NCBI GenBank assembly: GCA_018651745.1
Contig: JABIDL010000007.1
Coordinates: 1 to 31,649, forward strand
DNA: 31,649 nucleotides
Source: Candidatus Neomarinimicrobiota bacterium
Lineage (GTDB): Bacteria; Fidelibacterota; Marinisomatia; Marinisomatales; TCS55
Direction of reading: 5' to 3'
Position numbers and translations under genes: made by a program. Shown in pieces: positions 6,314 through 25,836 of this stretch (positions are counted from its first letter, which is position 1; the number at the start of each line of letters is the position of its first letter). The notes under the pieces are model-generated. The model searched no databases, was not told the DNA's origin, and saw only the letters and a program-made list of their open reading frames with translations.

Positions 6314-8161
6314 TTACCGTTCTTCAATCTTAAATAAAATATAATCTATAAACGATAACTCAAGCGGTTTTCGATTTTCAAATCTATACTTCCATAGTTG
6401 GTGATTTGCACCATCTTTGGATTGTTCAATCATTTCTCTGGGCTCGCCCATGATATTCTTCACCAGTGATGTATTCATTCCTATTCGAATAGTTGGTTTT
6501 GCCGCTTTTTCCTCTAAATTTTTTCGCTCCTGAATCATACGGGCATCAATTTTTGATTGTAATACCAGATTTTCTTTTGTTGTTAGTTTCTCTTTTAGTT
6601 CGTCGAGAATCCGCTCATTATTTCTACCTAAAGTCCCGGTTATATTTTTTGCTTTTTCAAGATATTGAACTACAAGATTGATGGCTTTCAGATCAGTAAT
6701 TTTATTAGCGTTTTCTATCAAAGATCCTGCTATTTCCTGTCTTAGCAAATCTATTCCGTAATGTAGAGATGGATCTTTTTTATCCGCTTGTTTTAGCAAT
6801 ATTAGAGCTTTATCATAAAAATTATACTGTATTGCTTTACTCGCTTGATAATATAAATGATAGGCTTCAAATTCAGGAATTACACTATCTACTTTAGAAT
6901 AGTATTGAGAAATATCATGTACCATTTCTATTGCTTTTTCGCCTTGGCCTGAATGTAAAACCAACTCCGCGGCATCCAATCGTGCTTCGGCAATTTTTCG
7001 AATATGATCATCTACAAACGGTTTAAAGGTGGAATCAGCAAAGACTCTAGCTTTTAAATATTTTTCTAAAGCACGATCTGTCATATTTCGTTCTTCAAAT
7101 TTTTGACCTTCTTTTAATAACTGAGTGGGAAGCTTTCGTTCACTTTCTTTAATTAGATATTCAGCTCGGTAGAGATTTGCATGGTTGGGATATAATTCAA
7201 CAAACTGTTTCAATTTTTCTGCTGCTTGCTGATAATCTTTCCTGTAATAATATTTTTTTCCAAGATCGCCAACTGTTTTTGAACCACCATACAATGCAGA
7301 AAACGTCACGAATACTCCAAAATTTGAAAGATAAAAACTGGAAATCGGCGTTATATCAGCAGGATCGTTGATATTCGATATCTTGGTGTAAGAATGCTTT
7401 AGATCAATGCCAATGTTAAACTTATTCTGTCTAGAATCGGATGCGGTTTGATTGAGAAGGACACGGATTCCAGCCGAATAAGAAGATGACGGCCCCCAAC
7501 CGCTGGGAGTAGCTTCAATTTCTTTTTCCGTCGTTTGATGAAATGTAGCAGTAGCAATTCCAAAAGTATAATTTAGATTTAAATACCATGGTTCAAACCA
7601 TTGAAGAATTACCGATTGGCTTACGCTGTAGGTCCAGGTTTTTGGTGCAAATTTTCTAACGCCCGGATTCCAGGATGGATTGGAATTCCCCCAGTCTTCT
7701 ACGGGGAGCTCAGCAGGAAGAAAGACATTTGAATACCGAATGTTTAATCCTGTATGCATATCTATCCAACTAGAATGAAGTAAATAAAGAGATAAATTTG
7801 TTTTCGCAAAATCAATATCTAACTGATGCCCTACCCTAGCCGTGAGTTCTCCGCCATCAAATTTGGTAACTGGCGAACCATATTGCATAAAATTTTCGTG
7901 CACACTGATGCCCGCAATACCGGCACCTCCGTTATAGCCAAAGCCATAACGGACTTCAAATGGAATAAATCTAATGGGTTCGTGGAATTCCCGACCTCGC
8001 AGGATACGATCCTTCCAATAGCCATCTTCAACCTCAATTTCTTGGGTTTGCTTTATTTGGATTAAGCCCCAAAGATAAGACTTGGTAGAATCTTGAGCGG
8101 TGAGATTGTTCACAACAACCCCTCCGACTACTAGTATTAGAAATATGAACCTCGGATACAT
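6314..8161 (-). CDS. Secreted/outer-membrane protein: beta-rich N-terminus, TPR region and BamE-like C-terminus
   Basis: Residues 1-22 are a signal peptide (LILVVGGVVVNNLTAQ). About 25-295 is rich in alternating aromatic strands and Gly and Asn, like an outer-membrane barrel of the PorV/OmpA type. About 300-530 is helical with TPR-like repeats (for example YYYRKDYQQAAEKLKQFVELYP and a similar unit near DRALEKYLKARVFAD). A short charged coil follows. The last ~60 residues contain IRIGMNTSLVKNIMGEP, which resembles the BamE/SmpA motif (G-M-x-x-x-x-V-x-x-x-x-G-x-P). I do not know a named family with this order. It is transcribed alone, divergent from the DUF4159 operon. A role in outer-membrane assembly or scaffolding is only a guess from the parts. 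Confidence 0.6.
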   Translation of the reverse strand: MYPRFIFLILVVGGVVVNNLTAQDSTKSYLWGLIQIKQTQEIEVEDGYWKDRILRGREFHEPIRFIPFEVRYGFGYNGGAGIAGISVHENFMQYGSPVTKFDGGELTARVGHQLDIDFAKTNLSLYLLHSSWIDMHTGLNIRYSNVFLPAELPVEDWGNSNPSWNPGVRKFAPKTWTYSVSQSVILQWFEPWYLNLNYTFGIATATFHQTTEKEIEATPSGWGPSSSYSAGIRVLLNQTASDSRQNKFNIGIDLKHSYTKISNINDPADITPISSFYLSNFGVFVTFSALYGGSKTVGDLGKKYYYRKDYQQAAEKLKQFVELYPNHANLYRAEYLIKESERKLPTQLLKEGQKFEERNMTDRALEKYLKARVFADSTFKPFVDDHIRKIAEARLDAAELVLHSGQGEKAIEMVHDISQYYSKVDSVIPEFEAYHLYYQASKAIQYNFYDKALILLKQADKKDPSLHYGIDLLRQEIAGSLIENANKITDLKAINLVVQYLEKAKNITGTLGRNNERILDELKEKLTTKENLVLQSKIDARMIQERKNLEEKAAKPTIRIGMNTSLVKNIMGEPREMIEQSKDGANHQLWKYRFENRKPLELSFIDYILFKIEER

Positions 8162-8314: not shown

Positions 8315-8965
8315 ATGGTTAAAAAAAATATTCCAATTATTCTGCTGTTATTGATGTTCTTTGCAAATGCACAGGATTTTACAATTGCACGGATTCATTA
8401 TAGCGGTGGCGGTGACTGGTACAGCGATCCAAGCAGCCTTCCCAATCTTCTGAATTACATCCGGCTAAATACAACCATGAAGGTTTCCGCTCAGGAAGCA
8501 CGCGTTCGGGTGCTGGATAAAGAATTGACTGAATTCCCTTTTCTATATTTAACCGGACATGGAAATCTCAGGTTCTCTGATGAGGAATCAATTCGTTTGA
8601 GAGAATTTTTACTGTCTGGCGCTTTTTTGCATGTGGATGATAATTACGGGCTGGATCAATCATTCCGGCGGGAAATACAAAAAATATTTCCTGATAAATC
8701 TCTGGTCGAGCTCCCTCACCATCACCCGATATTTTCGGCATATTATAATTTTCCGAATGGCCTTCCCAAAATACACGAACATGATGGAAAATCACCGCAA
8801 GCATTCGCGATATTTGATGAGGAAAGAATCATGGTTTTGTACACATATGAAAGCGATCTTGGTGATGGATGGGAAGACGCAGAAGTTCATAATGATTCAT
8901 GGTCGATCCGCGAGGCGGCTCTCAAATTTGGTGTAAATATTGTTACCTTTGCATTAACGCAATAG
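8315..8965 (+). CDS. DUF4159 domain secreted protein
   Basis: This 216-residue protein starts with a signal peptide (KKNIPIILLLLMFFANAQ). It carries the DUF4159 pattern: FTIARIHYSGGGDWYSDP, then FLYLTGHGN, an LREFLLSGAFLHVDDN segment and a HHHPIF stretch. The family has no established function. It often sits near MoxR ATPase/DUF58/BatA or DUF4175 genes. Its core (strand, GHG turn, helix, then FLxxGAFLHV) resembles ThuA and class I glutamine-amidotransferase-like folds, which is my inference. I chose ATG 8315 over GTG 8276 because it places the signal peptide at the N-terminus. A GGGGA lies about 13 bases upstream. It is the first gene of a plus-strand operon, 7 bases before the next gene. Confidence 0.85.
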   Translation: MVKKNIPIILLLLMFFANAQDFTIARIHYSGGGDWYSDPSSLPNLLNYIRLNTTMKVSAQEARVRVLDKELTEFPFLYLTGHGNLRFSDEESIRLREFLLSGAFLHVDDNYGLDQSFRREIQKIFPDKSLVELPHHHPIFSAYYNFPNGLPKIHEHDGKSPQAFAIFDEERIMVLYTYESDLGDGWEDAEVHNDSWSIREAALKFGVNIVTFALTQ

Positions 8966-8972
8966 CGATTTA

Positions 8973-11900
8973 ATGAAACCTATCCAAAAGGAATTATCGA
9001 AAATAAAAAAGGCCGCCTTTAGAACGGACCTTTTCACCTTATCTTGGGCGGGATACACCAGCATTATTGTTTTTATACTCACTCTTATTATTCTTGAAGG
9101 CATTTTTTATTTTTCACCTGATGTGCGCTATGGCATTTGGTGGGCATCGCTAATCCTCGGAGTAATAGGACTCACCGTTACAATCTGTTTTGGATTTTTA
9201 ATTTACCATCAAAAAATTCACCGTTATAGATGGTCCACCCTCTCACGTAAAACAGGAAATCTGGCCTTTAAAAATGAAGATGCAGTCTTAAATGCGCTTC
9301 AACTTGAACGATCAACATATCAAAACCAATCTAAAGATTTGAGCATATCTTATATAAAATCTGTTTTAACTGAATTGAAAGCATTAAATCTAAAATCCCT
9401 TTTCCCGATCAAAAGAGCTGAGCGGTGGCAACGAATCACTTTAGGAACATTGGTTGTTTCTATCCTCATTTTATTTTTGACATGGTCTCATAGTGCCGAA
9501 TCAGTTTTCCGTTGGGCACATCCAAAAACCCATTTCTCGGTTCCCACGCCTTTTACTATTGAAAACGAAACCGGGCATATTCATTTATTGGGAGGTGATC
9601 CCACAGAAATTACATTTTCTGTTATGGATGGTAAAACCGATTCTGTTTATCTTGAATTATTATCAGGACCGGAAACAGCCCCTATGATATATGCGTCGGC
9701 TATGGATTCCTCCGGCACATTTCATTTCAAGCTAAAGGAAGTTTTTCAAGATTATTCATACCGAGGATTTGTGCCGGCAACACATTTTTGGGAAGCGTGG
9801 GATAGAATCGAAACACCTATTTCTACAATCACCGTAACAGATCGACCCATAATAGAATCGTTCAGCATTTCTGTCATTCCTCCGAATTACACCAAGCTTC
9901 CTGTAATCACTCAGGAAGGTCAACAAGCCAATGTTGAAGGCGTGTTTGGGTCCATCGTAACCGTAAAATTATCCAGCAATCGTCCCCTAAAAAATGGCCA
10001 TGTAATTTTTCATAATGATACGTTAGCGCTCACTGTGCGTGGTAAAAAGGCCGATGGTAACTTTACCATTACACAGGATGATGAATTCACTATTCATTTG
10101 GAGGATCGTCGAGGAATTCACAACCGGAATCCTGTGCCGTACCGTATTTATATGATTCCGGATATGCATCCCGAACTCAGCGTTATTGAACCTGATCCTG
10201 TTGTTGAACTCGGGAGTGACCAAATGTTATCTATTCACCTCAATTTAAAAGATGACTATGGTTTTTCAACCCTTCAGGTGGGTTACGAAGTTCAAAGACC
10301 AAGTTATATTCAGGCCGAACCTATGCTATCTATATTCTCCATTCCAATTCCGGATCCAGATCTGTTAAACCAACAACTTGAAACCTTGTGGAATTTGAGT
10401 GACCTCGGATTAATGCCGGAAGATGAAGTTCATTATCATTTTGAACTGTATGATAACGATTTATTATCCGGTCCAAAAAAAGCACTTTCAGGAACATTTA
10501 TCGCACGGCTTCCATCTTTATCTGATTTATTTGCCTCTTTTAACGAAGATGAGACAAAATTATTAGATGATGCGGAAATGAATTTAGAAGATCTTGAAGT
10601 AATGAAGGAAAAGTTGGACAAAGTAGAACTTGAACTTAGGAAAGCTGAATCCATCGAATGGGATCAGGAACAGCAAGTGCGGAAATCTATGGAAAAGGTC
10701 CGAGAACAAATAGAAACAATGCAACGCATGGCGGAACAATTAGATGCCCTATCTAATTCGGCGGAAAAACATCAGCTTTTTTCTCCACAACTATTAGAAA
10801 AATTTGAACAACTTCAAGATATGGTCAGCGAACTATTAAATGACGAATTATTACAAAATATGGAAAACGTGGATGAAGCATTATCTAAAATGAATCCTAA
10901 GGAATTGTCAGAAGCCATGAAAGATTTGAATCAGAATATGGAAAAGCTTGAGGCCGATCTCGATCGATTCCTTGACATATTTAAACAAGTTCTTGCAGAG
11001 CAAAAGATGGAAGAATTAAAAACGCGATTAGAACAATTGGTGGATTCACAAGAAAAATTAACGGAAGATATTGAGGTAAACGGTCAAGATGCTGATGCAT
11101 CGGAATTTGCTCGGATGAGTCAAGATGAACAACGCCTTCGCGAGGAATTCTCTAACTTTGACCGTGTATTAAAGGATGCAGAATCTGCAATGGAAGATAT
11201 TCATCCTGAAACATCGGAACAATTAAATGAACTTAGACGATCTAAAGAAATGACAAAAACTCAAATGGATTTCGGCAGAACCATTCAACAATTAAACCAA
11301 AATAATTCTGATGGCGCAATGGGATCATCTGAAGAAGTACAAAAAGACCTTGAACAATTGTTGGAGCAGATTCAAGGAATCCAAAATAATTTTCAACAAC
11401 AGACTGCTAATCAAATTGCTGAAGAATTCAGACACATAATGAGAGATATTCTTTCCCTTTCAAAATCACAGGAAAATTTGACCCAAGAAACATTATCAAT
11501 ATCCAGAAATTCACCACGGCTTAAGGAATCCGCAGTTCAGCAACTGATGCTTCAAGACCAGTTAACCAAGATAATGGAGCAAATGATTGCCTTATCAAAA
11601 AAGACGTTTGCCATTACTCCGGAAATCGGAAAAGCAATGGGGATGACATATGCACAAATGGAATCAGCAAAATCTAAACTTGCAAATCGGAATAATTCCG
11701 GTGCAAAAGGAAACCAGGATGCCGCAATGCAATCACTCAATCAAGCTGCATTATCTGTTAGGAATGCCATGAATGACATTCGCTCGTCTGGGTCTGCAAG
11801 CGGGTTTGAACAATTTATGAAACGGATGGAACAGTTAGCCGGACAACAAGGTGGAATTAATGAGCAGGGAATGCAACTTGCAATGGGGCAGATGGCTGCT

Positions 11901-12404
11901 TCGTTGCAACAGGCGATGATGCAGCGCATGCTTCAGCAGCAAAAAGGAGTTCGCAAATCTCTTCAGGAACTAGCGGAAGAAATGCGGTCATCATCCAATA
12001 AAGGATTGGGTGACTTGAGCAATATTGCAAATGATATGGATGATGTAATCCACGATCTTGAACGCAAACGATTTAACCGAAAAACTGCGGATAAACAAGA
12101 ACGTATTTTATCCAGAATGCTTGACAGTCAAAAATCATTGACGCAAAAGGGCACCAAGGACAAACGAACATCCGAAACCGCAGAAATGATTTCATATGCC
12201 GGCCCCGGAGGGCTTCCCGAAGATCTTGGTCAGAGACAAAACCTAGCAATTGAAGCACTAAATCGAGCGATGAAATCCGGATATTCCAGAGATTATAAAA
12301 CCATGATTCGGCGATATTTTCAAACACTCAGCCAATCTGATGAAATTCTTCCAAATCCTGTGCCTCTAGATACAATGAATATAAATCAACCAACAGAAAA
12401 CTAA
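8973..12404 (+). CDS. Large DUF4175-like membrane-anchored coiled-coil protein
   Basis: This protein has 1143 residues. Transmembrane segments are clear at about 28-47, 54-79 and 154-172. About 180-520 is beta-rich and looks like Ig-type or extracellular domains (for example a stretch ending in DRPIIESFSISVIPPNY). About 525-1090 is an almost continuous, very charged coiled coil, with a Gln/Met-rich section near 950-995 (for example MQLAMGQMAASLQQAMMQ). Topology and length match DUF4175, seen next to DUF4159 in Bacteroidota and related phyla. There is no enzymatic motif I can recognise. It could be a periplasm-spanning scaffold. It starts 7 bases after the DUF4159 stop and ends 6 bases before the TPR gene, which argues for a single complex or pathway. 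Confidence 0.75.
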   Translation: MKPIQKELSKIKKAAFRTDLFTLSWAGYTSIIVFILTLIILEGIFYFSPDVRYGIWWASLILGVIGLTVTICFGFLIYHQKIHRYRWSTLSRKTGNLAFKNEDAVLNALQLERSTYQNQSKDLSISYIKSVLTELKALNLKSLFPIKRAERWQRITLGTLVVSILILFLTWSHSAESVFRWAHPKTHFSVPTPFTIENETGHIHLLGGDPTEITFSVMDGKTDSVYLELLSGPETAPMIYASAMDSSGTFHFKLKEVFQDYSYRGFVPATHFWEAWDRIETPISTITVTDRPIIESFSISVIPPNYTKLPVITQEGQQANVEGVFGSIVTVKLSSNRPLKNGHVIFHNDTLALTVRGKKADGNFTITQDDEFTIHLEDRRGIHNRNPVPYRIYMIPDMHPELSVIEPDPVVELGSDQMLSIHLNLKDDYGFSTLQVGYEVQRPSYIQAEPMLSIFSIPIPDPDLLNQQLETLWNLSDLGLMPEDEVHYHFELYDNDLLSGPKKALSGTFIARLPSLSDLFASFNEDETKLLDDAEMNLEDLEVMKEKLDKVELELRKAESIEWDQEQQVRKSMEKVREQIETMQRMAEQLDALSNSAEKHQLFSPQLLEKFEQLQDMVSELLNDELLQNMENVDEALSKMNPKELSEAMKDLNQNMEKLEADLDRFLDIFKQVLAEQKMEELKTRLEQLVDSQEKLTEDIEVNGQDADASEFARMSQDEQRLREEFSNFDRVLKDAESAMEDIHPETSEQLNELRRSKEMTKTQMDFGRTIQQLNQNNSDGAMGSSEEVQKDLEQLLEQIQGIQNNFQQQTANQIAEEFRHIMRDILSLSKSQENLTQETLSISRNSPRLKESAVQQLMLQDQLTKIMEQMIALSKKTFAITPEIGKAMGMTYAQMESAKSKLANRNNSGAKGNQDAAMQSLNQAALSVRNAMNDIRSSGSASGFEQFMKRMEQLAGQQGGINEQGMQLAMGQMAASLQQAMMQRMLQQQKGVRKSLQELAEEMRSSSNKGLGDLSNIANDMDDVIHDLERKRFNRKTADKQERILSRMLDSQKSLTQKGTKDKRTSETAEMISYAGPGGLPEDLGQRQNLAIEALNRAMKSGYSRDYKTMIRRYFQTLSQSDEILPNPVPLDTMNINQPTEN

Positions 12405-12410
12405 AACACG

Positions 12411-14312
12411 ATGCGCCATTATATTCTATTTCTAATACTTTTTCTGTCCACCGGTATCGGGCAAATTAAAGTATTACCCATGGGTGAAGGAGCTATGCGA
12501 GATGCATTTTTACTCGAACAAAAAGGTGAGCTTGAAACTGCACAAAAAATTTATGAGTCAATTTTTATTGCCAACCCAAAAAATCGGCAAAACTTCAACC
12601 GGTTGAAACGAATCTACCAAAGACAGGAAAAACAGACCGAAGTTGTTGCATTAATTCAAGATTGGCTCATTCAGTTCCCAAATGATATTATGGAGCAAAT
12701 AGATTTAGGGAAAGCTATGTACCAGTTGGGGAAAAAAGAAAAAGCTAAGATGTTTTGGCAAAGCATTGAAAAAAATCATAATAAAAGTCAGCATATTTAT
12801 CAATTATTGTTTAGAAACTACACCAATCTCGGGCTAACAAAAGACGCCCATTTGCTCATTCAAAGAGGTCGGAAAGTCATGCAACAGCCGGACTTTATGT
12901 CCATTGACTTAGCACAATTCTATGATGTGCGGAGATCATTTGATCTTGCTCTTGAGGAATATCTTATCCATTTGCTACATCAACCAAAAAAAGAAAAATA
13001 CATACAAGATAAAATTTTACTTATGAGCGATGAAGAAATTGCCCAGCCCTTAATTGTATTCACATTAAACAAGCATTACCCGGAAAATAAGAAACCCATT
13101 CTCAGGATTTTAGCTGGCTATTATTTTAAACTCGGGAATTTTGATTTGGCTGCTAACCAGCATAAAAAATTAGGATTTGAATCCAAAAATGATGTATCCA
13201 GATTTTTATCATTCGCAAAACATCTACGTTCTGAGAAACAGTATTCCTACGCAATGGATATTTACAGTAGCGTACTTTCAAAATCTAGAGGATCAGAAGG
13301 ATTGGTAACGTCTAAACAATTGGGCGAAGCTTTATTGGGCATGGGGCAAACGTATGAAGATCAAATTGTCATTCAATCGCGACTACCTAAGTTTGCCACT
13401 TATTTCAAAGATAACATTTTTTTTGAAGATCAATTTTTCGGTCAGCCAGACATTTCTAACGCATCGCTATCTTCAACATTTGATTTATACCATGACATTC
13501 TAAAACACAGTTCCGGATCACTTATTTCACCACAAGTTCACATTCGTTTGGCAGAAATTCAGTATCGCTTTACACGTGATTTTGATGGTGCGAGGCGTTC
13601 TCTTAAATTAGCATTATCCGGAAACATTAAACCACATCTCAAACGAGCTGTGTATGCCCGTTTATGCGATTTGTTACTCGCCGAAGGAAACCCAGAACAA
13701 TGCATTATGTTTATCGAAAATGACATCCCTAACGCTATTAAAACAAGTTCTGAGAATAGTCTTGCTATGAAAACGATCCAATCCTTTTTCTTATCCGGGA
13801 ATGCAACTGAAGCGCAAATTCACTTGGATTCGATTTTAGTAAAAATAAAACCGAGTCACCCATATTTTAACGACCTATTAGAATTAGGAGATCTTCTTTC
13901 CCTTCGTCTTGAGGGAAATAGTATTTCAGATTCCACTGCATTTTCTCTGTATCTTCAGGCTGAGGGATTAATTCGACAATCAAAACTTTCTGAAGCAGTG
14001 GAATTGTTGGCTCTTGTTCAGTCTGATTTTCCCGAAGCGCCCATAACTTCTAATGCTGTTTTTCGAGAAGCAATTGTCCGTTTTAGCCTCGGAGAACCTA
14101 GCCGAACGCTTGAACTTTCTGATAAGCTTAGTGGTACTTCATTTGCAAGTCATGGACTTGCTATCCAAGGAGAAGTTTTTGAACAGTTGTTACAAGATCC
14201 AAAAACTGCCCTAATTCATTACCATGCTCTTTTGGAAACTTATCCCTCCTCTCTGTTAGCAGAACCTATTAGACGGCATGCCAGGCAACTAAATGAAAGA
14301 ACAGAAAGTTGA
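12411..14312 (+). CDS. Secreted TPR-repeat protein
   Basis: This 633-residue protein has an N-terminal signal peptide (YILFLILFLSTGIG). The rest is helical hairpin repeats of TPR type, visible for example at AMRDAFLLEQKGELETAQ and YIQ-type units and again near the C-terminus (GLAIQGEVFEQLLQDPKTA). No catalytic motif is visible. It would act in the periplasm or at the envelope as a protein-protein scaffold. It is the third gene of the five-gene operon: six bases follow the DUF4175-like gene, and its TGA shares one base with the next ATG (TGATG at 14310-14314), so translation of the two is coupled. Confidence 0.8.
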   Translation: MRHYILFLILFLSTGIGQIKVLPMGEGAMRDAFLLEQKGELETAQKIYESIFIANPKNRQNFNRLKRIYQRQEKQTEVVALIQDWLIQFPNDIMEQIDLGKAMYQLGKKEKAKMFWQSIEKNHNKSQHIYQLLFRNYTNLGLTKDAHLLIQRGRKVMQQPDFMSIDLAQFYDVRRSFDLALEEYLIHLLHQPKKEKYIQDKILLMSDEEIAQPLIVFTLNKHYPENKKPILRILAGYYFKLGNFDLAANQHKKLGFESKNDVSRFLSFAKHLRSEKQYSYAMDIYSSVLSKSRGSEGLVTSKQLGEALLGMGQTYEDQIVIQSRLPKFATYFKDNIFFEDQFFGQPDISNASLSSTFDLYHDILKHSSGSLISPQVHIRLAEIQYRFTRDFDGARRSLKLALSGNIKPHLKRAVYARLCDLLLAEGNPEQCIMFIENDIPNAIKTSSENSLAMKTIQSFFLSGNATEAQIHLDSILVKIKPSHPYFNDLLELGDLLSLRLEGNSISDSTAFSLYLQAEGLIRQSKLSEAVELLALVQSDFPEAPITSNAVFREAIVRFSLGEPSRTLELSDKLSGTSFASHGLAIQGEVFEQLLQDPKTALIHYHALLETYPSSLLAEPIRRHARQLNERTES

Positions 14313-15562
14313 TGAAACATCTTCTTTTTAGTATTTTGTTAATTGGGATGCTTCCAGGTCAAAAAATTCTCATTCCGATGGATCCTCAACAAAATGATCA
14401 TTTAAAAGCATACGGCATTGCCTTTTGGATTTTGGAGCGCGATATTAATGTAGAATGGCTTCTCAATTATCGTGGAGGATCTTTTTTAACGCAAGGGCAT
14501 TCTGCCATTGAACAAGAATGTAGAGTCCGTGGAGTAACATTTGAACGCGTAAATGCGACTGATATTTTGAATATCATGGGAGAAATAGAACAAAATAATA
14601 TGGATGTAGTCTTGCTTGAAAAAGCACCTAAAATTGCTATTTACACTCCAACGAATAAACAACCCTGGGATGATGCGGTTACACTTGCTCTGACGTATTC
14701 TGAAGTTCCATATACAACCTTGTGGGATGAGGAAGTTTTGACAAGCGGGTTAGATCAATACGATTGGCTGCATCTTCATCACGAAGATTTTACAGGTCAG
14801 TATGGAAAATTTTACCGGAATTATCACACAGCCCCGTGGTACATCAATCAAAAAGCAGATTTTGAATCCATGGCGGCAAAGTTTGGATTTCCATCTGTGC
14901 ATGAAGAAAAAAAGGCAATTGCTAGAGCAATTAAATCTTTCGTTGGACAGGGTGGGTTTTTATTTGCCATGTGTTCAGCAACGGATTCATACGATATTGC
15001 GCTTTCAATGGAAGGCGTTGATGCGGCTCATTCGGTTTTCGATGGATCCCCGGGAGATCTTGATGCTCAAGAAAAACTAAATTTTTCAAAATCATTCGCT
15101 TTTACTGATTATTCAATTATTCCAGATCCCATGATTTACGAATTTTCCAATATTGATTTTCCTCCGAGTAACAACCCTGTCACGAGGGGCGCAGAAGTGG
15201 ATTATTTTTCATTGTTCGAGTTCTCGGCGAAATTTGATCCCGTGCCAACCATGCTTACTCAGAATCATGTAGCAGTGGTGAAGGGGTTTATGGGTCAAAC
15301 TACAGGATTTCATCGAGATTTTATTAAAAAACATATCATTATTATGGGCGAAGATCCGGCATCGCCCCAAGTCAAATATTTGCACGGGAATTTTGGGCAG
15401 GGAACCTTCACATTTTTAGGAGGTCACGATCCCGAAGATTACCAACATTATGTAGGCGATCCACCAACGGATCTTTCACTTCATCGACACTCGCCCGGCT
15501 ACCGCCTCATCCTGAATAATATTCTCTTCCCCGCCGCTCGGAAAAAAGAACGAAAAACGTGA
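14312..15562 (+). CDS. Secreted protein of the family labelled 'asparagine synthetase B' (function unknown)
   Basis: This 416-residue protein has a signal peptide (KHLLFSILLIGMLPG). Strongly conserved-looking blocks include KILIPMDPQQNDHLKAYG, WLLNYRGGSF, PWDDAVTLALTY, DWLHLHHEDFTGQYGKFY, FAMCSATDSYDIA and GGHDPEDYQHYVGDPPTD. I recognise this as a Bacteroidota-type family commonly annotated as asparagine synthetase B. It has no N-terminal catalytic Cys and no PP-loop ATP site of true AsnB, and it is exported, so the name is almost certainly wrong. The stretch FVGQGGFLFAMCSATD resembles the Cys elbow of class I glutamine-amidotransferase-like proteins (inference). The start is ATG 14312, overlapping the previous stop; a TTG one codon earlier is possible. 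Its own stop overlaps the GNAT gene start. Confidence 0.8.
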   Translation: MKHLLFSILLIGMLPGQKILIPMDPQQNDHLKAYGIAFWILERDINVEWLLNYRGGSFLTQGHSAIEQECRVRGVTFERVNATDILNIMGEIEQNNMDVVLLEKAPKIAIYTPTNKQPWDDAVTLALTYSEVPYTTLWDEEVLTSGLDQYDWLHLHHEDFTGQYGKFYRNYHTAPWYINQKADFESMAAKFGFPSVHEEKKAIARAIKSFVGQGGFLFAMCSATDSYDIALSMEGVDAAHSVFDGSPGDLDAQEKLNFSKSFAFTDYSIIPDPMIYEFSNIDFPPSNNPVTRGAEVDYFSLFEFSAKFDPVPTMLTQNHVAVVKGFMGQTTGFHRDFIKKHIIIMGEDPASPQVKYLHGNFGQGTFTFLGGHDPEDYQHYVGDPPTDLSLHRHSPGYRLILNNILFPAARKKERKT

Positions 15563-15993
15563 TACACATCCGGAAATCAGAATTAATTGAATGTGTACAA
15601 TTATCAAAATTGATTCCTGAGTTTGAAAATCCATATCCACTTACAGAGTACAAAATGCGCTGTTCGCAAGTAGCCCATTTATCTTTAATTGCTGATTTTG
15701 AAAAACAACCGGCTGGATTCAAAATCGGGTATGATAGATTTAATGATGGATCATTTTACAGTTGGATGGGCGGTGTACGGGTAGAATACAGAAGGAATGG
15801 AATTGCTAAAGACCTCGCTGATAATCAGGAAAATTGGGCAAAAGAAAACGGATATAAATCCATCAAATTGAAAACAAGGAAAAAGCATCACGCAATGATT
15901 GCCTTCTTGCTGGATCAGGGATATTCAATTACATCTGAAGAGCCAAAAGAAAATCCGCTGGAAACACGAATTTGGATGGATAAAAAAATATAA
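15559..15993 (+). CDS. GNAT family N-acetyltransferase
   Basis: This 144-residue single-domain GNAT enzyme would move an acetyl group from acetyl-CoA to an amine. The acetyl-CoA pyrophosphate loop is RRNGIAKDL in the context GGVRVEYRRNGIA (motif A), and the C-terminal beta strand with FLLDQGYSI (motif B) follows the helix. No signal peptide or membrane segment is seen, so it is cytoplasmic, unlike the rest of its operon. The GTG start at 15559 overlaps the previous TGA as GTGA, so it is coupled to the secreted protein upstream. The substrate is unknown. It is the last gene of the five-gene plus-strand operon. Confidence 0.88.
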   Translation: MIHIRKSELIECVQLSKLIPEFENPYPLTEYKMRCSQVAHLSLIADFEKQPAGFKIGYDRFNDGSFYSWMGGVRVEYRRNGIAKDLADNQENWAKENGYKSIKLKTRKKHHAMIAFLLDQGYSITSEEPKENPLETRIWMDKKI

Positions 15994-16193: not shown

Positions 16194-16613
16194 ATGTGGG
16201 TTCAAAAAAAGATAACACTTTCATCTCACTCCCGTGGCTTCCATGTTATTACAAATGAAATCCTAGGAGAACTCCCGGAACTTGCAAACTTCAAGATCGG
16301 AATCCTGCATGTGTTCATTCAGCATACTTCTGCTTCGCTTGCAATCAATGAAAATGCCGATCCGGATGTTAGGGCAGATTTTGAAGCGCATTTCAATGAG
16401 ATGATCCCCGAAAATCTGCCGTACTACCGCCACACGCTGGAAGGACCAGATGATATGCCCTCTCACATTAAGGCAGCACTCTTGGGATCGGATCTTTCCA
16501 TTCCAATCGAAAATGGAAAACTGGCCTTGGGAACTTGGCAGGGAATTTATTTATGCGAGCATCGAGATCGCGGAGGACAGCGAAAATTGATGTTAACTAT
16601 TCAAGGGGAATGA
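16194..16613 (+). CDS. yjbQ: YjbQ family protein (secondary thiamine-phosphate synthase type)
   Basis: This is a 139-residue single-domain protein of the UPF0047/YjbQ family. Family blocks seen are LHVFIQHTSASLAINENADPD-like (His and Ser/Thr cluster), a central YRHTLEGPDDMPSHIKAALLG segment and the C-terminal LGTWQGIYLCEHRDRGGQR motif. The length is normal (about 130-140). A weak thiamine-phosphate synthase activity is reported for the family, and the true cellular role is unsettled. The only nearby upstream gene ends 200 bases away, so it is probably transcribed alone. No strong ribosome-binding site is visible before the ATG. Confidence 0.93.
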   Translation: MWVQKKITLSSHSRGFHVITNEILGELPELANFKIGILHVFIQHTSASLAINENADPDVRADFEAHFNEMIPENLPYYRHTLEGPDDMPSHIKAALLGSDLSIPIENGKLALGTWQGIYLCEHRDRGGQRKLMLTIQGE

Positions 16614-16665: not shown

Positions 16666-17571
16666 TTAACGAGCGATTGGCATGGTGTGGCGATCAATTC
16701 CAATTGAACCAAAAACACCAATTCCTTCTTCAATCCCAAAACTTTGACCAGACCCACCCTCACCCAAAAATATATTCGAATATTCTGAATCATCTGCATA
16801 TCTAAAAAAGAAATCGTAATAATTTTCATCCATACTCATCAGAGAAATGAGCAACCAATCTTCATCCCAGTTTAGATTGCCTCCATCTTCAGAAAATTCC
16901 TTTCTTAAGGTCCAACTTTCTTCCCCCGGGCCGATGATTTCTTCTTGGGTAAGCCCATAATCATTATTATTATAATTATCCTCTTTCCAAATATAACTTA
17001 AGGAATTAGCTACACTCATTATTTGGTAATGGTTTGTAAGTGGCTGCCAACTAATATCCATGGTTTGATCCAATTGAAATGTATCTGGTAACAGATTTGT
17101 AAAAAGTTGGGAAGATGGAGGAATCGTGGTTTCGCCGGTTGCGGTGAGACCTCCCGGAGTGGAAATTGAAAGCGTCCATATTTCGCCGGGGTACGGGTTC
17201 AGCGAATCTCCATTAAATACATAAGCCCCCGTTGAGGTACTGTCTCCAGCCTCTAAATCGAAGTCATCATATTCAAAAAGATAGTCTTTTCCGTTATTGC
17301 TGACAATCACTTGCGCATCTCTAATTACATACCTTGAAGCATAATAGATGTTACCAACCGGGTCTTTTATGAGGGTGTCTGATGCTTCGTCCATTCTCAA
17401 TGAACGGTGCACGCGGATAAAGCTAGTGACAAGCGTATCTACAGATAAAATACCTAGCACATTCAGTACTGGTTCGTGGTCAGTTTCTACATCTTCCCAT
17501 TCCAATTCCGGGGAAATACTCAAACACCCTGAAATAAAAATGATAAGACTGATGGACATGAGCTTCCGCAT
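16666..17571 (-). CDS. DUF4249-type lipoprotein
   Basis: With the start at 17571 the protein has 301 residues and begins with a lipoprotein signal (SLIIFISGC, lipobox Cys at residue 16). The remainder is beta-rich, with a WTLSISTPGGLTATGETTIPP segment and a PGE..WTLSI pattern typical of DUF4249. This family is encoded next to TonB-dependent receptors in Bacteroidota and relatives. It is a presumed surface or periplasmic partner in uptake, with no known ligand. Here the ATG shares one base with the receptor stop (TAATG), so the two are coupled. It is the last gene of a long minus-strand cluster. A start six codons upstream inside the receptor gene is less likely. Confidence 0.82.
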   Translation of the reverse strand: MRKLMSISLIIFISGCLSISPELEWEDVETDHEPVLNVLGILSVDTLVTSFIRVHRSLRMDEASDTLIKDPVGNIYYASRYVIRDAQVIVSNNGKDYLFEYDDFDLEAGDSTSTGAYVFNGDSLNPYPGEIWTLSISTPGGLTATGETTIPPSSQLFTNLLPDTFQLDQTMDISWQPLTNHYQIMSVANSLSYIWKEDNYNNNDYGLTQEEIIGPGEESWTLRKEFSEDGGNLNWDEDWLLISLMSMDENYYDFFFRYADDSEYSNIFLGEGGSGQSFGIEEGIGVFGSIGIDRHTMPIAR

Positions 17572-20000
17572 TAGAATTCTGCTCTCCATCCAAGGGTAAG
17601 GAAAAATGGGAACATTGGTAAAGCTGCCCGTTCCATTCCCATGCTTTCACCGGTTAACCTGTTTTGTTTGTTTTGGTATTGATAGGTAATTGCATTTACG
17701 TGATTTGTTACATTGTTCAGCTGAATAAACCTTTCATAGGGAAATCCAAATATGGATGTTTTATGTTTTAAGCCAATATCCATTCGAAAGTAAAAAGGCA
17801 GGCGTGCTGAATTTTTTTCTCCTACTAAGAGACTTTCAACTCCCTTCCAATACGGTTTAACCGCATCATGTTCTACTGACCAATTTTCATATCGGCCGAG
17901 TGGTGGAGTGTAGGGTTGACCGGTGGAAGCCTGAATAGATGTACTTAAATGCAGATTCTTAAGAACAGAAAAATCTCCGACAATGTTTAAGGTATGTGTC
18001 CGATCATATTTCGGATGGTACCAACCAATTTTTTCAATATGTCGTTTTGTTTCGGCAAAGGTATAGCCAACCCAACCTCGAAACCGACCGGCGGTCTTTT
18101 TGAATAGAAATTCGAAGCCATATGCAAACGCTTTGGTTTCGTAAAACTCATTAAACGGAGTGGATCGCGATTCGTCTTCATCACCAAACATTAAGTCGCC
18201 TTGTTTAAGTGTGATCAGATTTTCGAAATGTTTATAATAAGTTTCTCCTCGAGCCAGCCAGTTTTCATCTGAAAGATACTCAATCCCCAGGATGACATGA
18301 TCTGCGTAGGGTGCCGGGCGGTCTGCCGGAATGCCAAGCCAAAAATCTATAAGGCGCCACGATTCATCTTCCGTATTTGCGATCGTTAAAAATTGATGAT
18401 ATCGCCCAAGTGCAAATTTTAATGAAAGGTCTTTTCTTAAGATATATTTCAGCCCAAAGCGAGGATCAATGTAGATTGAATCATGCAGGGAATAATCCAT
18501 CACTCGGCCCCCCATCTGCAACGCGAGTTTGGAGGTAACATCCCACTTATCCTGTAGAAAAAATGAAGTTTCTACCGTCCGGTTTTCCATTTGGAGAGGA
18601 TTCAAAAAAACGGTTGTATCTAAAGTCGAAAAAGTAAATTCCATCCCAAGATTATAATCCACCTGCTTTATTTGGAATCCACCCATAATCTGATGATTCG
18701 TGAGTCCATGCCAGGAAATTTCTGTTTCAACTGTTTTATCATCCACAATGTCAAAAAAATCGAAAGAAAATGATTCATCATAGGAACCGGATTCATTCCC
18801 CATATTCCAAGTTCCTTCATCAGAAAAATTCATGTCAAAATGGAATCGGTATCTGCTATTGGCTATAAACGTGCGAGCTACAAGTTGAGGTGTTATCAAC
18901 CATCGCCACGTGAGGCTATTGGTATGGTTCCCCCAAGGCCATTCAATTCCAAATGAAGAGTTGTTTTCCTCAGAATAATCTGAATAAATATCATAATTTT
19001 CGCTACGGTCGCTAAAAGAAAAAGTCAACACATCGTCACCGTAAAAACGGCTGTATGTCAAACGATGATTCAGATTTACATCTAAATTCACTTTGATTTG
19101 ATAATCATAAAAGTAATATGGAAATTTAAAATCATCATTCGCTCCCGAAATTATTCGGATAGCGCCTATAAACTGGTCAAAATAGGTTCGCCGCCCTGCA
19201 ATCATCCATGAGCCTTTCATACCGCCTATTTTCGGAAGTGGCCCTTCCAGCAAAGCTTTACTGGACACAAGGGATATATTTGCATTTCCTGTGATTTCTT
19301 CTGTATTTCCTTCGCGGTTGATTACATTCAGTATGGCGCCCATGCGTCCACCGTAGCGCGCAGGAAATCCTCCGGCATGGAAATCTGCTTCTTTTATGGC
19401 GTCGGTATTAAACGTGGAAAATATGCCACCTAAATGATACGGATTGTACACCGTAATCCCATCCAGCATAACCAGGTTTTGATCAGGTGTACTTCCGCGT
19501 ACATACAGCGCGCTGGAAAAATCATTAAGCGTCTGTACACCAGGGAGTAATTGGATTGTTCTAAATAAATCAGGCTCAATAAAAGCAGGAGCGAGTTCAA
19601 GTGTACGGAGGTCAAGGGTGATTCTGCTGGGTTCCACCAGCTCGCGCATTTTCTGTACTTCGCCAAACACATCCACCGCTTCTCCCTCAATAACCATCGG
19701 CAAGAGGCGAAAGTCCAGACGTAGATTTTGATTTCCTTTAAATTGAGTATTTTGGGTAATCATTTTAAAACCGATAATAGAAACCGCAATTTCATATTCT
19801 CCGGGAGGAACATTGGTAATCACATAATATCCTTCCACATTTGAGGCGGCACCAAGATTGGTTGACTTGATAAATACATTGGCATAGGCTAATGGTTCGC
19901 CGGTGGCATCATTACGCAAGAATCCGCTGATGGTAGCTGTTTCCTGCGCGTGCAACCCAATGGCAAAAAGAAGAAAAATAGTTTGAAGTGTTTTCAACAT
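17571..20000 (-). CDS. TonB-dependent receptor with carboxypeptidase-regulatory-like N-terminal domain
   Basis: This is an 809-residue outer-membrane receptor. It has a signal peptide ending LHAQ, then a CarboxypepD_reg-like Ig domain (about 22-105, with FLRNDATGEPLAYANVFI and VPPGEYEIAVS). The plug domain follows (about 115-230; SALYVRGSTPDQNLVMLDG, then FPARYGGRMGAILNV), and then a large aromatic-rich beta barrel ends in a terminal Phe (RAEF), as in BAM substrates. No long SusC-type motif is evident and no ligand can be inferred. It begins 44 bases after mazG and is coupled to the DUF4249 lipoprotein gene, suggesting a small uptake unit attached to the housekeeping cluster. Confidence 0.93.
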   Translation of the reverse strand: MLKTLQTIFLLFAIGLHAQETATISGFLRNDATGEPLAYANVFIKSTNLGAASNVEGYYVITNVPPGEYEIAVSIIGFKMITQNTQFKGNQNLRLDFRLLPMVIEGEAVDVFGEVQKMRELVEPSRITLDLRTLELAPAFIEPDLFRTIQLLPGVQTLNDFSSALYVRGSTPDQNLVMLDGITVYNPYHLGGIFSTFNTDAIKEADFHAGGFPARYGGRMGAILNVINREGNTEEITGNANISLVSSKALLEGPLPKIGGMKGSWMIAGRRTYFDQFIGAIRIISGANDDFKFPYYFYDYQIKVNLDVNLNHRLTYSRFYGDDVLTFSFSDRSENYDIYSDYSEENNSSFGIEWPWGNHTNSLTWRWLITPQLVARTFIANSRYRFHFDMNFSDEGTWNMGNESGSYDESFSFDFFDIVDDKTVETEISWHGLTNHQIMGGFQIKQVDYNLGMEFTFSTLDTTVFLNPLQMENRTVETSFFLQDKWDVTSKLALQMGGRVMDYSLHDSIYIDPRFGLKYILRKDLSLKFALGRYHQFLTIANTEDESWRLIDFWLGIPADRPAPYADHVILGIEYLSDENWLARGETYYKHFENLITLKQGDLMFGDEDESRSTPFNEFYETKAFAYGFEFLFKKTAGRFRGWVGYTFAETKRHIEKIGWYHPKYDRTHTLNIVGDFSVLKNLHLSTSIQASTGQPYTPPLGRYENWSVEHDAVKPYWKGVESLLVGEKNSARLPFYFRMDIGLKHKTSIFGFPYERFIQLNNVTNHVNAITYQYQNKQNRLTGESMGMERAALPMFPFFLTLGWRAEF

Positions 20001-20044: not shown

Positions 20045-20836
20045 CTACAAACAGCCATTATTTTTCTTTACCTGATTCCAGATTTCATCCATCTCCTCCA
20101 AATTCGATTCTTCCAGAGTTTTCCCTCTTTTTTTCAATTCTTTTTCGATCCCGGCAAAACGAGTTGTGAATTTCTTATTCGATTTTCTAAGCGCATCTTC
20201 TGCCGGAATGTCCAAAAATCTGGCCAAGTTCACAATGGCGAAAAGTACGTCACCGATTTCTTCTTCTATGTGTTCTTTTGCTTCTTCTGATTCGGCTTCT
20301 TTGAGTTCCTGAATTTCCTCGTGAACTTTTTCCCAAACTTGTTCTATTTTATCCCAATCAAAACCGGTATAGCTGGCTTTCTGTTGTAATCTCTGAGCGC
20401 GCACAAGAGCAGGCAAAGTGACCGGGACACCATCCAATCTAGACGCGCGTTTCTTTTCCTTATGTTTGGTGGCTTCCCAGTTTTGTTTTGCTTCAAAAGC
20501 AGCGTCAGCTTTTGCATCGCCAAAGACATGCGGGTGGCGGCGGACCAATTTTTCGCTAACATGGTTTATGGATTCATTCAATTTGAAATACCCATTCTCT
20601 TCTGCAATTAAAGCTTGCATGATTGTATGTAATAAAATGTCGCCCAATTCCTCTTTTAGCTCGCTCCAATTTTCCTGGTCTACACTTTCCATAACTTCAT
20701 AAGCTTCTTCCAAAAAAAATGGAAGCAGCGAAGCATGTGTCTGTTCTCTATCCCAAGGGCACCCATCTGGTTCACGCAATCTTGCGACAATACCGGTAAG
20801 TTCCTCAAACATTTCGCCTAATTTTTTGTCACTCAT
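20045..20836 (-). CDS. mazG: Nucleoside triphosphate pyrophosphohydrolase MazG
   Basis: The protein has 263 residues, the same length as E. coli MazG, and hydrolyses NTPs and dNTPs to monophosphates. Both all-helical MazG domains are visible. The first has the metal-binding pattern EEAYE (43-47) then ELGD (63-66). The second has HEEIQELKEAESEEA and EEIGDVLFAIVN. The N-terminal PDGCPWDREQTHASL motif is typical. It overlaps the 3' end of ybeY by 8 bases. In the family it controls ppGpp and damaged-nucleotide levels, but no toxin-antitoxin partner is near. Confidence 0.95.
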   Translation of the reverse strand: MSDKKLGEMFEELTGIVARLREPDGCPWDREQTHASLLPFFLEEAYEVMESVDQENWSELKEELGDILLHTIMQALIAEENGYFKLNESINHVSEKLVRRHPHVFGDAKADAAFEAKQNWEATKHKEKKRASRLDGVPVTLPALVRAQRLQQKASYTGFDWDKIEQVWEKVHEEIQELKEAESEEAKEHIEEEIGDVLFAIVNLARFLDIPAEDALRKSNKKFTTRFAGIEKELKKRGKTLEESNLEEMDEIWNQVKKNNGCL

Positions 20837-21269
20837 TTATAATCCCTTCCCATCCAAATTGTGTTAAATAATAATTCTCTTTTTCCCGCATGATCTTCCG
20901 TTCGTCTTCAGTTTTGTCATCGAAATTCAGTAAATGTAATCCGCCATGAATCAATAGCCGGCAAATCTCTTTTTCAACCGGTTCATTAAAGTTAGCAGCA
21001 TTTTCTTTCGCTCTTTCTAGGCTGATATAAATTTCACCCTCCACCTTTTTTTCAGAATAATCGTTTAAACGAAACGCAATAACATCCGTGAATTCATCTT
21101 TCTTAAAAAATTCTTTTTTAAGACGCCGTAATGATTCATCACCGGTAAAAATAATAGAAATATCGCCTTCCGTATATCCTTCGGATGACAATGTTTTATA
21201 GATTATTGAGAAGGTTTTGTCCTGATGGATGTTGGAATCACCGCCATCAAGAATAGTTTTTACAATCAT
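20829..21269 (-). CDS. ybeY: Endoribonuclease YbeY (rRNA maturation factor)
   Basis: This 146-residue metalloprotein acts in 16S 3'-end maturation and ribosome quality control. The signature HGGLHLLNFDDKTEDE is at residues 108-123. His108 and His112 are kept, but the third canonical metal His (H-x3-H-x5-H) is Asp118. Bacteroidota YbeY proteins have the same substitution, so it is probably a lineage form and not inactivation. An upstream segment with IYISLERAKENA is conserved. The ATG overlaps the pgpH stop as ATGA, and the pgpH-ybeY order is common in bacteria. Here mazG follows. Confidence 0.93.
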   Translation of the reverse strand: MIVKTILDGGDSNIHQDKTFSIIYKTLSSEGYTEGDISIIFTGDESLRRLKKEFFKKDEFTDVIAFRLNDYSEKKVEGEIYISLERAKENAANFNEPVEKEICRLLIHGGLHLLNFDDKTEDERKIMREKENYYLTQFGWEGIINE

Positions 21270-23602
21270 TTCACTTTTGCATTGGACTTATCGCCTTCGG
21301 GGTATTCAACGCGAATGTGATAAATCCCTCGCAATACAGGAAGCAAGCCGGTATTGCCGTCCACAGTTCCCCGAATTTGCCGAATTTCATCCATGGTTAA
21401 CGGACAATGGTCAAGTTGTCCTGTTGAAAGCCGTTTCTCAATAATTTTATCCATCATTTTTTCAATTTTCATAATATCAGGTTCTTTGATGGATCGGGTC
21501 GCTGCTTCCACTGCTTCACAAATCATCAGAATACCGGTTTCTTTTGTATTAGGACGCGGGCCATTATAAAAAAATAATTTTTCATCCACTTTCGATTCGT
21601 CACCGCCCGCTTCCTCAAGCGCTTTATGGTAAAAATACTCTACACGAGTTGTGCCGTGATGCATCGGAATAAAATCACTTACCGCCTGCGGAAGCCCATA
21701 TTCTTTCGCTAGTTTTAACCCGTCGCTGACATGTTTTCTGATAATTTTTGCGCTCATAGCCGGAGTCAATTCATCATGCTTATTTTTATCAGACAGCATA
21801 TTTTCGATAAAATATTCAGGACGTCCAATTTTACCAATATCATGATAGTATGCGCCAACACGGCAGAGCAGAGAATGTGCTCCGATTGCATCTGCGCACG
21901 CCTCGGCAAGATTACCGACAACTACACTGTGGTTAAAGGTTCCATTGGCTTCACGCTGAAGGCGTTTTAAAATAGGATTTTGAAAATCTAATAATTCAAG
22001 AAGCGTAAGATTTGTTGTCACTTTAAATACCACTTCGAGAATACCGATGAGTCCATAGGTTACCACAGGCGCCAAGATGCTCATTGCCACCAGGTAAAGC
22101 ATATCTATTCCCATTCCACTCCAAGATGACTGTTTAAAAAGTCCCAATGCCAAAACCACCACTGCACTGGCAATCAGCAAAGAGATGATGGTTGTGAACA
22201 TTTGCCGTCTTCGCCTCAGTTTTCTTACCGAAAACAGTGCGATCGATGATGTAAAAAGTGCAATAATGATAAATTCCACATTATTCCCAATTAATATTCC
22301 GGCGAGCAATGTAATTGAGGTAACTCCCATAAATCCAATTCTTGCATCAAACATTATAGTTAGAACCATTGCAGACACCACGACAGGAATCAGATATTCA
22401 GAGAATCCAAGCCTCACTGTAAAAATGTATGCAAAGGATATTACCAATAAGAACATGAGTCCAATCAAGATTAGCATTCGAATGTCATCAAAAATGTGAA
22501 TTCGATATGTTAACAAAAAGGTAAAGAAAAATGAAACTACAACAGCAATTGTAAGGAGTTTCCCAAGATAAGCGATTGATTTATCCAAAAAAGTTTCAGT
22601 CCCTGCGTGCTTGCTAATAGCGATGCTAAGAGAATTCAATTTTTCAAGGATTTCTTTTGTAATGCGTGTATTGGTATCTACAATTCTTTCATTTTGTAGA
22701 ACGATTCCTTTATGTCTTGGAACAAGGTCTAACCTTGCCTGACTTCTTCGCTCCGTTGTTTCCCGATCATACACGAGGTTTGGGCTCATAAATTCCACAA
22801 TCAATTCATATCCCAGCTCTAATTCTAACTCACTTTTCCTCTCGTACAGATGGGTGACTTCTAACCGTGATTTTGTCCAAGCTTGCTGAAGGTCGTTAAA
22901 TGCTTCGGGGGAGTCTAAAGACGGAGCATCCGAAGCTGTTTGAATTGAAATGTCTGTGCTAATAATCGCATTTTTTGGAAGATCAAGGATCCCTTCGGCC
23001 CACCGATTTCTACAAACCTGCACAATAGATGATTCAAACTGTTTCAAATCAGTTCTTGATGGATCATCTGGAATTGGAATTAAAAATGCGTCCCACCGAT
23101 CTTTTTCGATTGTGAATGGGTAGTTAGCGTAAAATGCTTGTAAAAGGATAGAAATTTTGGCGCTATCCGTTTGAACCATTAATTTTGCTTCTTCATATTG
23201 GGAAGAAAACCTGTAACGATACTCAAGGTCTTTTGAATTCCTGATATTTACGCGGGCTTGTCGTATCGCATCTACAGATTGAAAGAAATGGGACATCTTT
23301 TTGGTTTGAGACTCAACGATATTCTGATCCCGAGTAAACAAATATGGTTCTGAAGCCTGGGCTTGGTCTAAATCCGTTTTCAATTCGGATGCAGTTTTTA
23401 GGATCGGGAAATTAAACGGTGCAATTATCGGATCCCGAGTAATATCATCTAGGTTATAACTGTATAGAAGGGATGTTCCACGAGGAAAAAAGAACGAGAG
23501 TAGAACCACAAGACCTAGCACGACAGAAATTGGCTGCCAGTGGTCTTTCACAATGGTGATAAACACAGAAAGTTGATTTGGACGATGGTTAGAGTTCTTC
23601 AT
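21266..23602 (-). CDS. pgpH: 7TM-HD family phosphodiesterase (PgpH-like, probable c-di-AMP hydrolase)
   Basis: This is a 778-residue membrane protein. One transmembrane helix lies near residues 18-38, followed by a large extracytoplasmic 7TMR-HDED domain (about 40-345), seven helices (about 350-540), and a cytoplasmic HD domain. HD residues are present: NHSVVVGNLAEA, HDIGK at 587-591, KHDELTPAMSAK, KHVSDGLKLA and MHHGTTR. The set is complete, so it is probably an active phosphodiesterase. In Firmicutes this architecture hydrolyses c-di-AMP, and activity here is inferred. It shares a base with the acyl-CoA dehydrogenase stop (TAATG) and overlaps ybeY by four bases. PhoH, often the upstream partner, is absent here. 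Confidence 0.92.
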   Translation of the reverse strand: MKNSNHRPNQLSVFITIVKDHWQPISVVLGLVVLLSFFFPRGTSLLYSYNLDDITRDPIIAPFNFPILKTASELKTDLDQAQASEPYLFTRDQNIVESQTKKMSHFFQSVDAIRQARVNIRNSKDLEYRYRFSSQYEEAKLMVQTDSAKISILLQAFYANYPFTIEKDRWDAFLIPIPDDPSRTDLKQFESSIVQVCRNRWAEGILDLPKNAIISTDISIQTASDAPSLDSPEAFNDLQQAWTKSRLEVTHLYERKSELELELGYELIVEFMSPNLVYDRETTERRSQARLDLVPRHKGIVLQNERIVDTNTRITKEILEKLNSLSIAISKHAGTETFLDKSIAYLGKLLTIAVVVSFFFTFLLTYRIHIFDDIRMLILIGLMFLLVISFAYIFTVRLGFSEYLIPVVVSAMVLTIMFDARIGFMGVTSITLLAGILIGNNVEFIIIALFTSSIALFSVRKLRRRRQMFTTIISLLIASAVVVLALGLFKQSSWSGMGIDMLYLVAMSILAPVVTYGLIGILEVVFKVTTNLTLLELLDFQNPILKRLQREANGTFNHSVVVGNLAEACADAIGAHSLLCRVGAYYHDIGKIGRPEYFIENMLSDKNKHDELTPAMSAKIIRKHVSDGLKLAKEYGLPQAVSDFIPMHHGTTRVEYFYHKALEEAGGDESKVDEKLFFYNGPRPNTKETGILMICEAVEAATRSIKEPDIMKIEKMMDKIIEKRLSTGQLDHCPLTMDEIRQIRGTVDGNTGLLPVLRGIYHIRVEYPEGDKSNAKVK

Positions 23603-24762: not shown

Positions 24763-24772
24763 TAATCTCGAT

Positions 24773-25762: not shown

Positions 25763-25836
25763 ATCAGGAATTCCATAAGAATGAGAGTTTCAACAAACTA
25801 CAATTTACAGTAAATAATAATAATCAAGTTAATGAG

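Follow-up and report, generated by a model that had tools for sequence, protein, structure and literature searches.

Five genes packed closely together on one strand raise the question of whether they encode a single undescribed envelope machine, as the initial annotation of this DNA had proposed, or whether some of them are only neighbours. The window, i.e. the whole stretch of DNA that was analysed, is the complete contig C7 of 31,649 bases and belongs to a 1.86 Mb genome (96% complete) of Marinisomatota (SAR406-type). The results presented below argue for a machine made of four of the five gene products.

Layout of the locus

The tight packing of the five same-strand open reading frames was confirmed (Table 1). 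The DUF4159 and DUF4175 genes are separated by 7 bases and the DUF4175 and TPR genes by 6 bases; the TPR and 'AsnB-like' genes meet in a TGATG stop-start overlap, and the AsnB-like and GNAT genes share a 4-base GTGA overlap. Because of the stop-start overlap, the ATG is the likelier start of the AsnB-like gene, judging from the sequence, than the alternative TTG; the residue numbers used here are counted from the TTG. Hydropathy analysis showed strongly hydrophobic N-termini on the DUF4159, TPR, and AsnB-like proteins and three hydrophobic segments in the DUF4175 protein, near residues 20-51, 53-80, and 152-175, while the GNAT showed neither a hydrophobic N-terminus nor a hydrophobic segment. 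Thus, the earlier statement that four of the five products are exported or membrane-bound holds. The DUF4159 gene occurs once in the genome, and a scan for promoters and terminators gave matches at chance level only.

Table 1. Genes of the cluster and of its surroundings in the window.
Feature	Position	Strand	Properties
Divergent exported protein	6314-8161	-	TPR-like C-terminal half
DUF4159 protein	8315-8965	+	216 aa, exported; PF13709, 220.4 bits (cut-off 25.9)
DUF4175 protein	8973-12404	+	1143 aa; PF13779, 57.4 bits (cut-off 27.3), residues 301-937
Exported TPR protein	12411-14312	+	633 aa; TPR_14, TPR_6, and TPR_19 matches
Exported 'AsnB-like' protein	14312-15562 (alternative start 14309)	+	about 416 aa; no Pfam or NCBIfam match
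GNAT acetyltransferase	15559-15993	+	144 aa; PF00583, 37 bits
YjbQ/UPF0047 protein	16194-16613	+	TIGR00149, 146 bits
TonB-dependent receptor-like protein and DUF4249 partner	16666-20000	-	
MazG, YbeY, 7TM/HD protein, acyl-CoA dehydrogenase, KAS III, RecJ	20045-27546	-	neighbouring block

Gene order and joint presence of the four genes

Reading the neighbourhoods in 37 Marinisomatota genomes, we found the DUF4159, DUF4175, TPR, and AsnB-like genes side by side, with their order unchanged, in 32 of the 37 loci. In the five exceptions the AsnB-like gene was separate and the DUF4159-DUF4175 pair was still together. The identical four-gene order was also present outside the Marinisomatota, in the loci L093 and L098 (both KSB1), L104 (Gemmatimonadetes), L095, L107, and L113. 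Since the synteny is conserved to this extent, the four-gene cluster is far beyond chance.

The same cannot be said of the GNAT gene, which was found 3' of the AsnB-like gene in 10 of the 17 loci from the window's own order and in none of the 20 outside it. Within the order it could lie up to about 2 kb from the AsnB-like gene, with other genes in between. Because of this narrow distribution the GNAT was ruled out as a component and is a lineage-specific local neighbour outside the core module; the suggestion that it modifies a component found no support. The YjbQ/UPF0047 gene was a commoner downstream neighbour than the GNAT gene (a cluster of 61 loci in the survey), and a further functional link between it and the module is possible.

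Among the other flanking genes, the one for the divergent exported protein is conserved beside the module (a cluster of 33 loci), and the first four members of the block that begins with MazG recur 3' of the module in many relatives. No clustered homologue of the TonB-dependent receptor-like protein and its DUF4249 partner was seen in the other loci read. In flavobacterial loci the AsnB-like gene is located 3' of TGT-LptF/G-AccA-DnaB, and in Bacteroidota the conserved genes 3' of the DUF4175 gene are presumably YbeY and MnmG. Around the module genes of Bacteroidota lie common housekeeping genes, which do not point to any substrate.

The presence of the four genes was then compared across 148 Bacteroidota genomes. 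The AsnB-like protein was detected in 108, DUF4159 in 109, and DUF4175 in 109 of these, and the same 108 genomes carried all three. Full-length TPR homologues tracked the other three genes: the best E-value of the TPR profile was 2e-32 or better in all 108 genomes and 2.4e-18 or worse in the other 40, the threshold for presence being set post hoc, at the gap that separated these groups. The additional DUF4159/DUF4175 genome, G245, is one of the 40 without the four-gene set and keeps only Bat-type paralogues: its MoxR and DUF58 are accompanied by a DUF4159 paralogue and a short protein resembling DUF4175. The module genes are mostly scattered in Bacteroidota and lie up to megabases apart in several single-contig genomes (they are far apart in, e.g., G226, G272, G303, and G287), so linkage does not explain the all-or-none pattern. 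General assembly failure does not explain the absences either, as MnmG was found in 147 of the 148 genomes; in addition, several of the genomes lacking the module are near-complete single contigs of 2.2-5.1 Mb.

To place the absences on a phylogeny, an MnmG tree was built with FastTree from 80 Bacteroidota genomes, 40 lacking and 40 carrying the module, which were picked from both groups and not at random. It contained seven all-lacking clades and required six parsimony changes; it is a single-gene tree with some weak nodes, and the nodes of about five of the losses are well supported. The absences would thus represent about 6-7 independent joint losses. A set of 50 FCB genomes, chosen for carrying the AsnB-like gene, had DUF4159 in 48 and DUF4175 in 47, and the exceptions were mostly draft MAGs.

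A decayed form of the locus was found in the Marinisomatota genus g5, whose streamlined genomes are 0.8-1.0 Mb in size. No match to the AsnB-like protein or to DUF4175 was obtained in this genus, and the DUF4175, TPR, and AsnB-like genes are gone from the syntenic locus (L287-L290), which is flanked by relatives of the genes that flank the module in the window. The only trace of the module there is a diverged DUF4159-like open reading frame of 193-196 aa, in which the motifs GGGDWY and THG are no longer present. This fits a loss of function once the partners were gone, the alternative being a changed function.

Because related bacteria keep or lose the four genes together even when these are far apart, we regard the genes between 8315 and 15562 as very probably forming one functional module. 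The proposal of one envelope machine is strongly supported for DUF4159, DUF4175, TPR, and AsnB-like, on the basis of synteny, all-or-none presence, and joint losses, and fails for the GNAT. The co-occurrence survey, in which rare co-occurrence would have spoken for an incidental cluster, left the four-gene core standing.

The AsnB-like protein and its partners

The AsnB-like protein is far more conserved than its DUF4175 and TPR partners. We aligned 58 homologues, drawn from Marinisomatota, KSB1, Bacteroidota, Ignavibacteria, Kapabacteria, Cloacimonadota, Zixibacteria, Gemmatimonadota, and other phyla; they are 56-78% identical to the protein of the window, and about 80 columns are invariant. 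The identity was 21-48% for DUF4175 and, relative to the TPR protein of the window, 17-35% for TPR. A hydrophobic, signal-like segment preceded the conserved core in all 146 homologues tested. The window protein has no Pfam family and the 58 relatives have no consistent one, and a sequence search found no solved structure for the family.

The protein was modeled with good confidence (m1728fcb4a1ea; pLDDT 87, pTM 0.88). Residues 106-413 of the model adopt a class I GATase-like (flavodoxin-like) fold, matching many GATase-like structures with Z-scores of 10.5-12.6. The top match was an N-acetyl-(R)-beta-phenylalanine acylase (Z 12.6, VIA-align), and ThuA-like proteins, MetA, PdxT, HisH, and PuuD were also found; the Foldseek E-values were modest (best 1.8e-5, with low TM). 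In the class I GATase-like superfamily the nucleophile is a cysteine at a strand-helix elbow. Cys222, invariant in the 58 sequences, lies between strand 217-221 and helix 223-233 of the predicted model. The other invariant residues include H157, H158, E159, D160, H320, H373, D374, E376, and D377, and the invariant motifs HHED (157-160) and GGHDPEDYQH are present. The stretch H373-D-P-E376 follows strand 365-370 of the model, with a spacing different from that of HPE. From their places in the alignment and in the predicted secondary structure, Cys222, His373, and Glu376 or Asp374 are candidate catalytic residues, and the protein may well be a cysteine enzyme. It thus would share its fold and the cysteine at the nucleophile elbow with superfamily members such as ThuA-like proteins, MetA, PdxT, and PuuD, and differs from them in being exported, in having no Pfam membership, in an extra N-terminal domain (about residues 18-105), and in having GGHDPED where class I GATases have HPE.

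The name under which the protein had been annotated appears misleading. The likeness to asparagine synthetase B is confined to the label given in the initial annotation, and the predicted fold and the signal peptide are different from that enzyme. As neither an asparagine synthetase domain nor a class II glutaminase domain was found in the window protein (Pfam, NCBIfam) or in the 58 relatives, the 'AsnB' label is probably wrong and should be dropped. An 'asparagine synthetase B' transcript has been listed for Bizionia (PMC9478572) and might or might not belong to the AsnB-like family. The Bacteroidetes/Chlorobi signature proteins of PMC1887533 were rejected as counterparts of the AsnB-like protein because of their lengths.

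The DUF4159 protein carries the motifs GGGDWY, THG, and GGFLHxDDNYG and has no conserved cysteine (alignment of 33 sequences). It belongs to the same sequence family as the solved structure 4i66 (Hoch_4089; E 1.2e-18), itself uncharacterised. Both the DUF4159 and the AsnB-like proteins have a GGFL-type motif; detectable homology between the two was rejected, as a profile comparison gave a 21% probability over 24 columns located elsewhere in the proteins. For the DUF4175 protein, the model (m7effbe847667; pLDDT 82, pTM 0.49) predicts three transmembrane helices, three Ig-like beta-sandwich domains (about 195-302, 312-406, and 410-512), and a long helical coiled coil at 516-1062, in an arrangement of domains that is not reliable. 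Foldseek matched it only to generic tandem Ig/FnIII-type proteins. In the literature searched, no mention of DUF4159 was found, and DUF4175 was mentioned in one paper, in connection with the Acinetobacter AdvA.

Possible function and relation to Bat-type clusters

The DUF4175 protein would be held in the inner membrane by its three helices, with the Ig-like domains and the long coiled coil projecting into the periplasm. The TPR protein could serve as an adaptor, the AsnB-like protein could be the enzyme, an amidase or acyl/amido-transferase that depends on a cysteine and has a polymer or a protein of the envelope as its substrate, and DUF4159 would be a companion subunit, perhaps binding the substrate or a partner. 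Together, the four proteins would act as a periplasmic enzyme on a scaffold, responsible for maturing or repairing a shared component of the envelope, and would do so with neither a MoxR nor a vWA protein encoded beside them. As a whole, this scaffolded envelope enzyme module is the best explanation we can offer and a reasonably probable one. Whether the four proteins form a physical complex is an even question, and any particular substrate named at this stage would be improbable. More tentatively, the module might be a new trans-envelope machine that goes back to the ancestor of the FCB group; its periplasmic enzyme, Cys-dependent and of the GATase fold, would carry out a reaction on the envelope to which no known system corresponds, and the machine would be dispensable only as a whole.

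The AsnB-like protein is of interest because it is exported and very strongly conserved across the FCB group, yet has no Pfam family and bears a seemingly wrong enzyme label. Through the all-or-none pattern it is tied to the three other proteins, so that four orphan families become a single system open to testing. Flavobacteria carry the genes and some of them are cultivable and genetically tractable, so deletion and active-site mutants are directly feasible. Work on the module could also open up DUF4159 and DUF4175, two families found again in the Bat/MoxR clusters, which are themselves poorly understood.

The relation to these clusters was examined in the window, in its genome, and in relatives. 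In agreement with the initial annotation, no AAA_3 (MoxR), DUF58, or vWA domain was matched among the window's open reading frames scanned. Elsewhere in the genome, MoxR-DUF58 pairs are located on C2 and C37 and a vWA-like pair on C19, with DUF58 on all three contigs. In several Bacteroidota, a second cluster (L275-L279, L285) has a DUF4159 paralogue beside MoxR, DUF58, a protein of 386-517 aa, and a DUF4175-like protein of 710-780 aa; in KSB1, L282 combines TPR, DUF4159, MoxR, DUF58, DUF4175, and BatA-like genes. Bat operons thus share the DUF4159 and DUF4175-type families with the module, and TPR proteins and envelope proteins with a membrane anchor are typical of such operons as well (PMC3557215, PMC11834572). 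In contrast, the module adds the conserved Cys GATase-fold protein, its DUF4175 is the long form with a coiled coil, and it has no linked MoxR, DUF58, or vWA gene. By its sequence families, the module is related in two of them to Bat-type clusters, without the ATPase and vWA parts that define these. The molecular function of the Bat proteins has been described as not elucidated (PMC3557215), and in Riemerella the Bat operon affects stress resistance (PMC11834572).

The module could belong to the MoxR-DUF58-BatA (Bat-type) chaperone machinery as a branch that depends on MoxR and DUF58 encoded elsewhere, with the AsnB-like and TPR proteins as accessory subunits or clients of an AAA+ system. The paralogues beside MoxR-DUF58, the KSB1 cluster, the two MoxR-DUF58 loci in the window's genome, and a MoxR gene three genes upstream of DUF4159 in L190 are consistent with such a dependence. 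However, none of MoxR, DUF58, and vWA was linked to the four genes in the Marinisomatota neighbourhoods checked, and G245, with a Bat-type cluster and no module, shows that the two are separable; we consider this branch explanation unlikely. MoxR or DUF58 genes hidden upstream in relatives were also looked for, but the upstream genes tested encode other products: a cation efflux protein, a GGDEF regulator, DUF456, PPIases, and a SecD/SecF-type protein.

A slightly stronger, though still rather unlikely, alternative concerns the enzyme itself. Some relatives with the GATase fold are not enzymes, and the AsnB-like protein could be a non-catalytic ligand-binding protein of this fold in a module that acts as a sensor or a structural tether. 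Its matches to ThuA-like proteins, to the GATase-like domains of GH42 galactosidases, and to a chain of the levan utilisome, which are not amidases, point in this direction, as does the lack of a conserved cysteine in DUF4159. On the other hand, an invariant cysteine placed directly where a strand ends and a helix follows, together with the invariant histidines and acidic residues and a conservation far above that of the partners, argues for catalysis. An incidental clustering of unrelated conserved genes, which the many housekeeping neighbours in Bacteroidota could suggest, is very improbable given the identical gene order across phyla and the joint absence of genes that are not linked. The scaffolded enzyme module therefore remains our preferred explanation.

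An anti-phage defence system was also considered and rejected, as no PADLOC model supported it; there was only a weak match in the DUF4175 coiled coil (E 7e-4). Finally, at L036 (11967-14216) we observed a DUF1565 protein with a Por secretion (T9SS-type) C-terminal tail, which adjoins a MoxR-DUF58 pair in the same genome.
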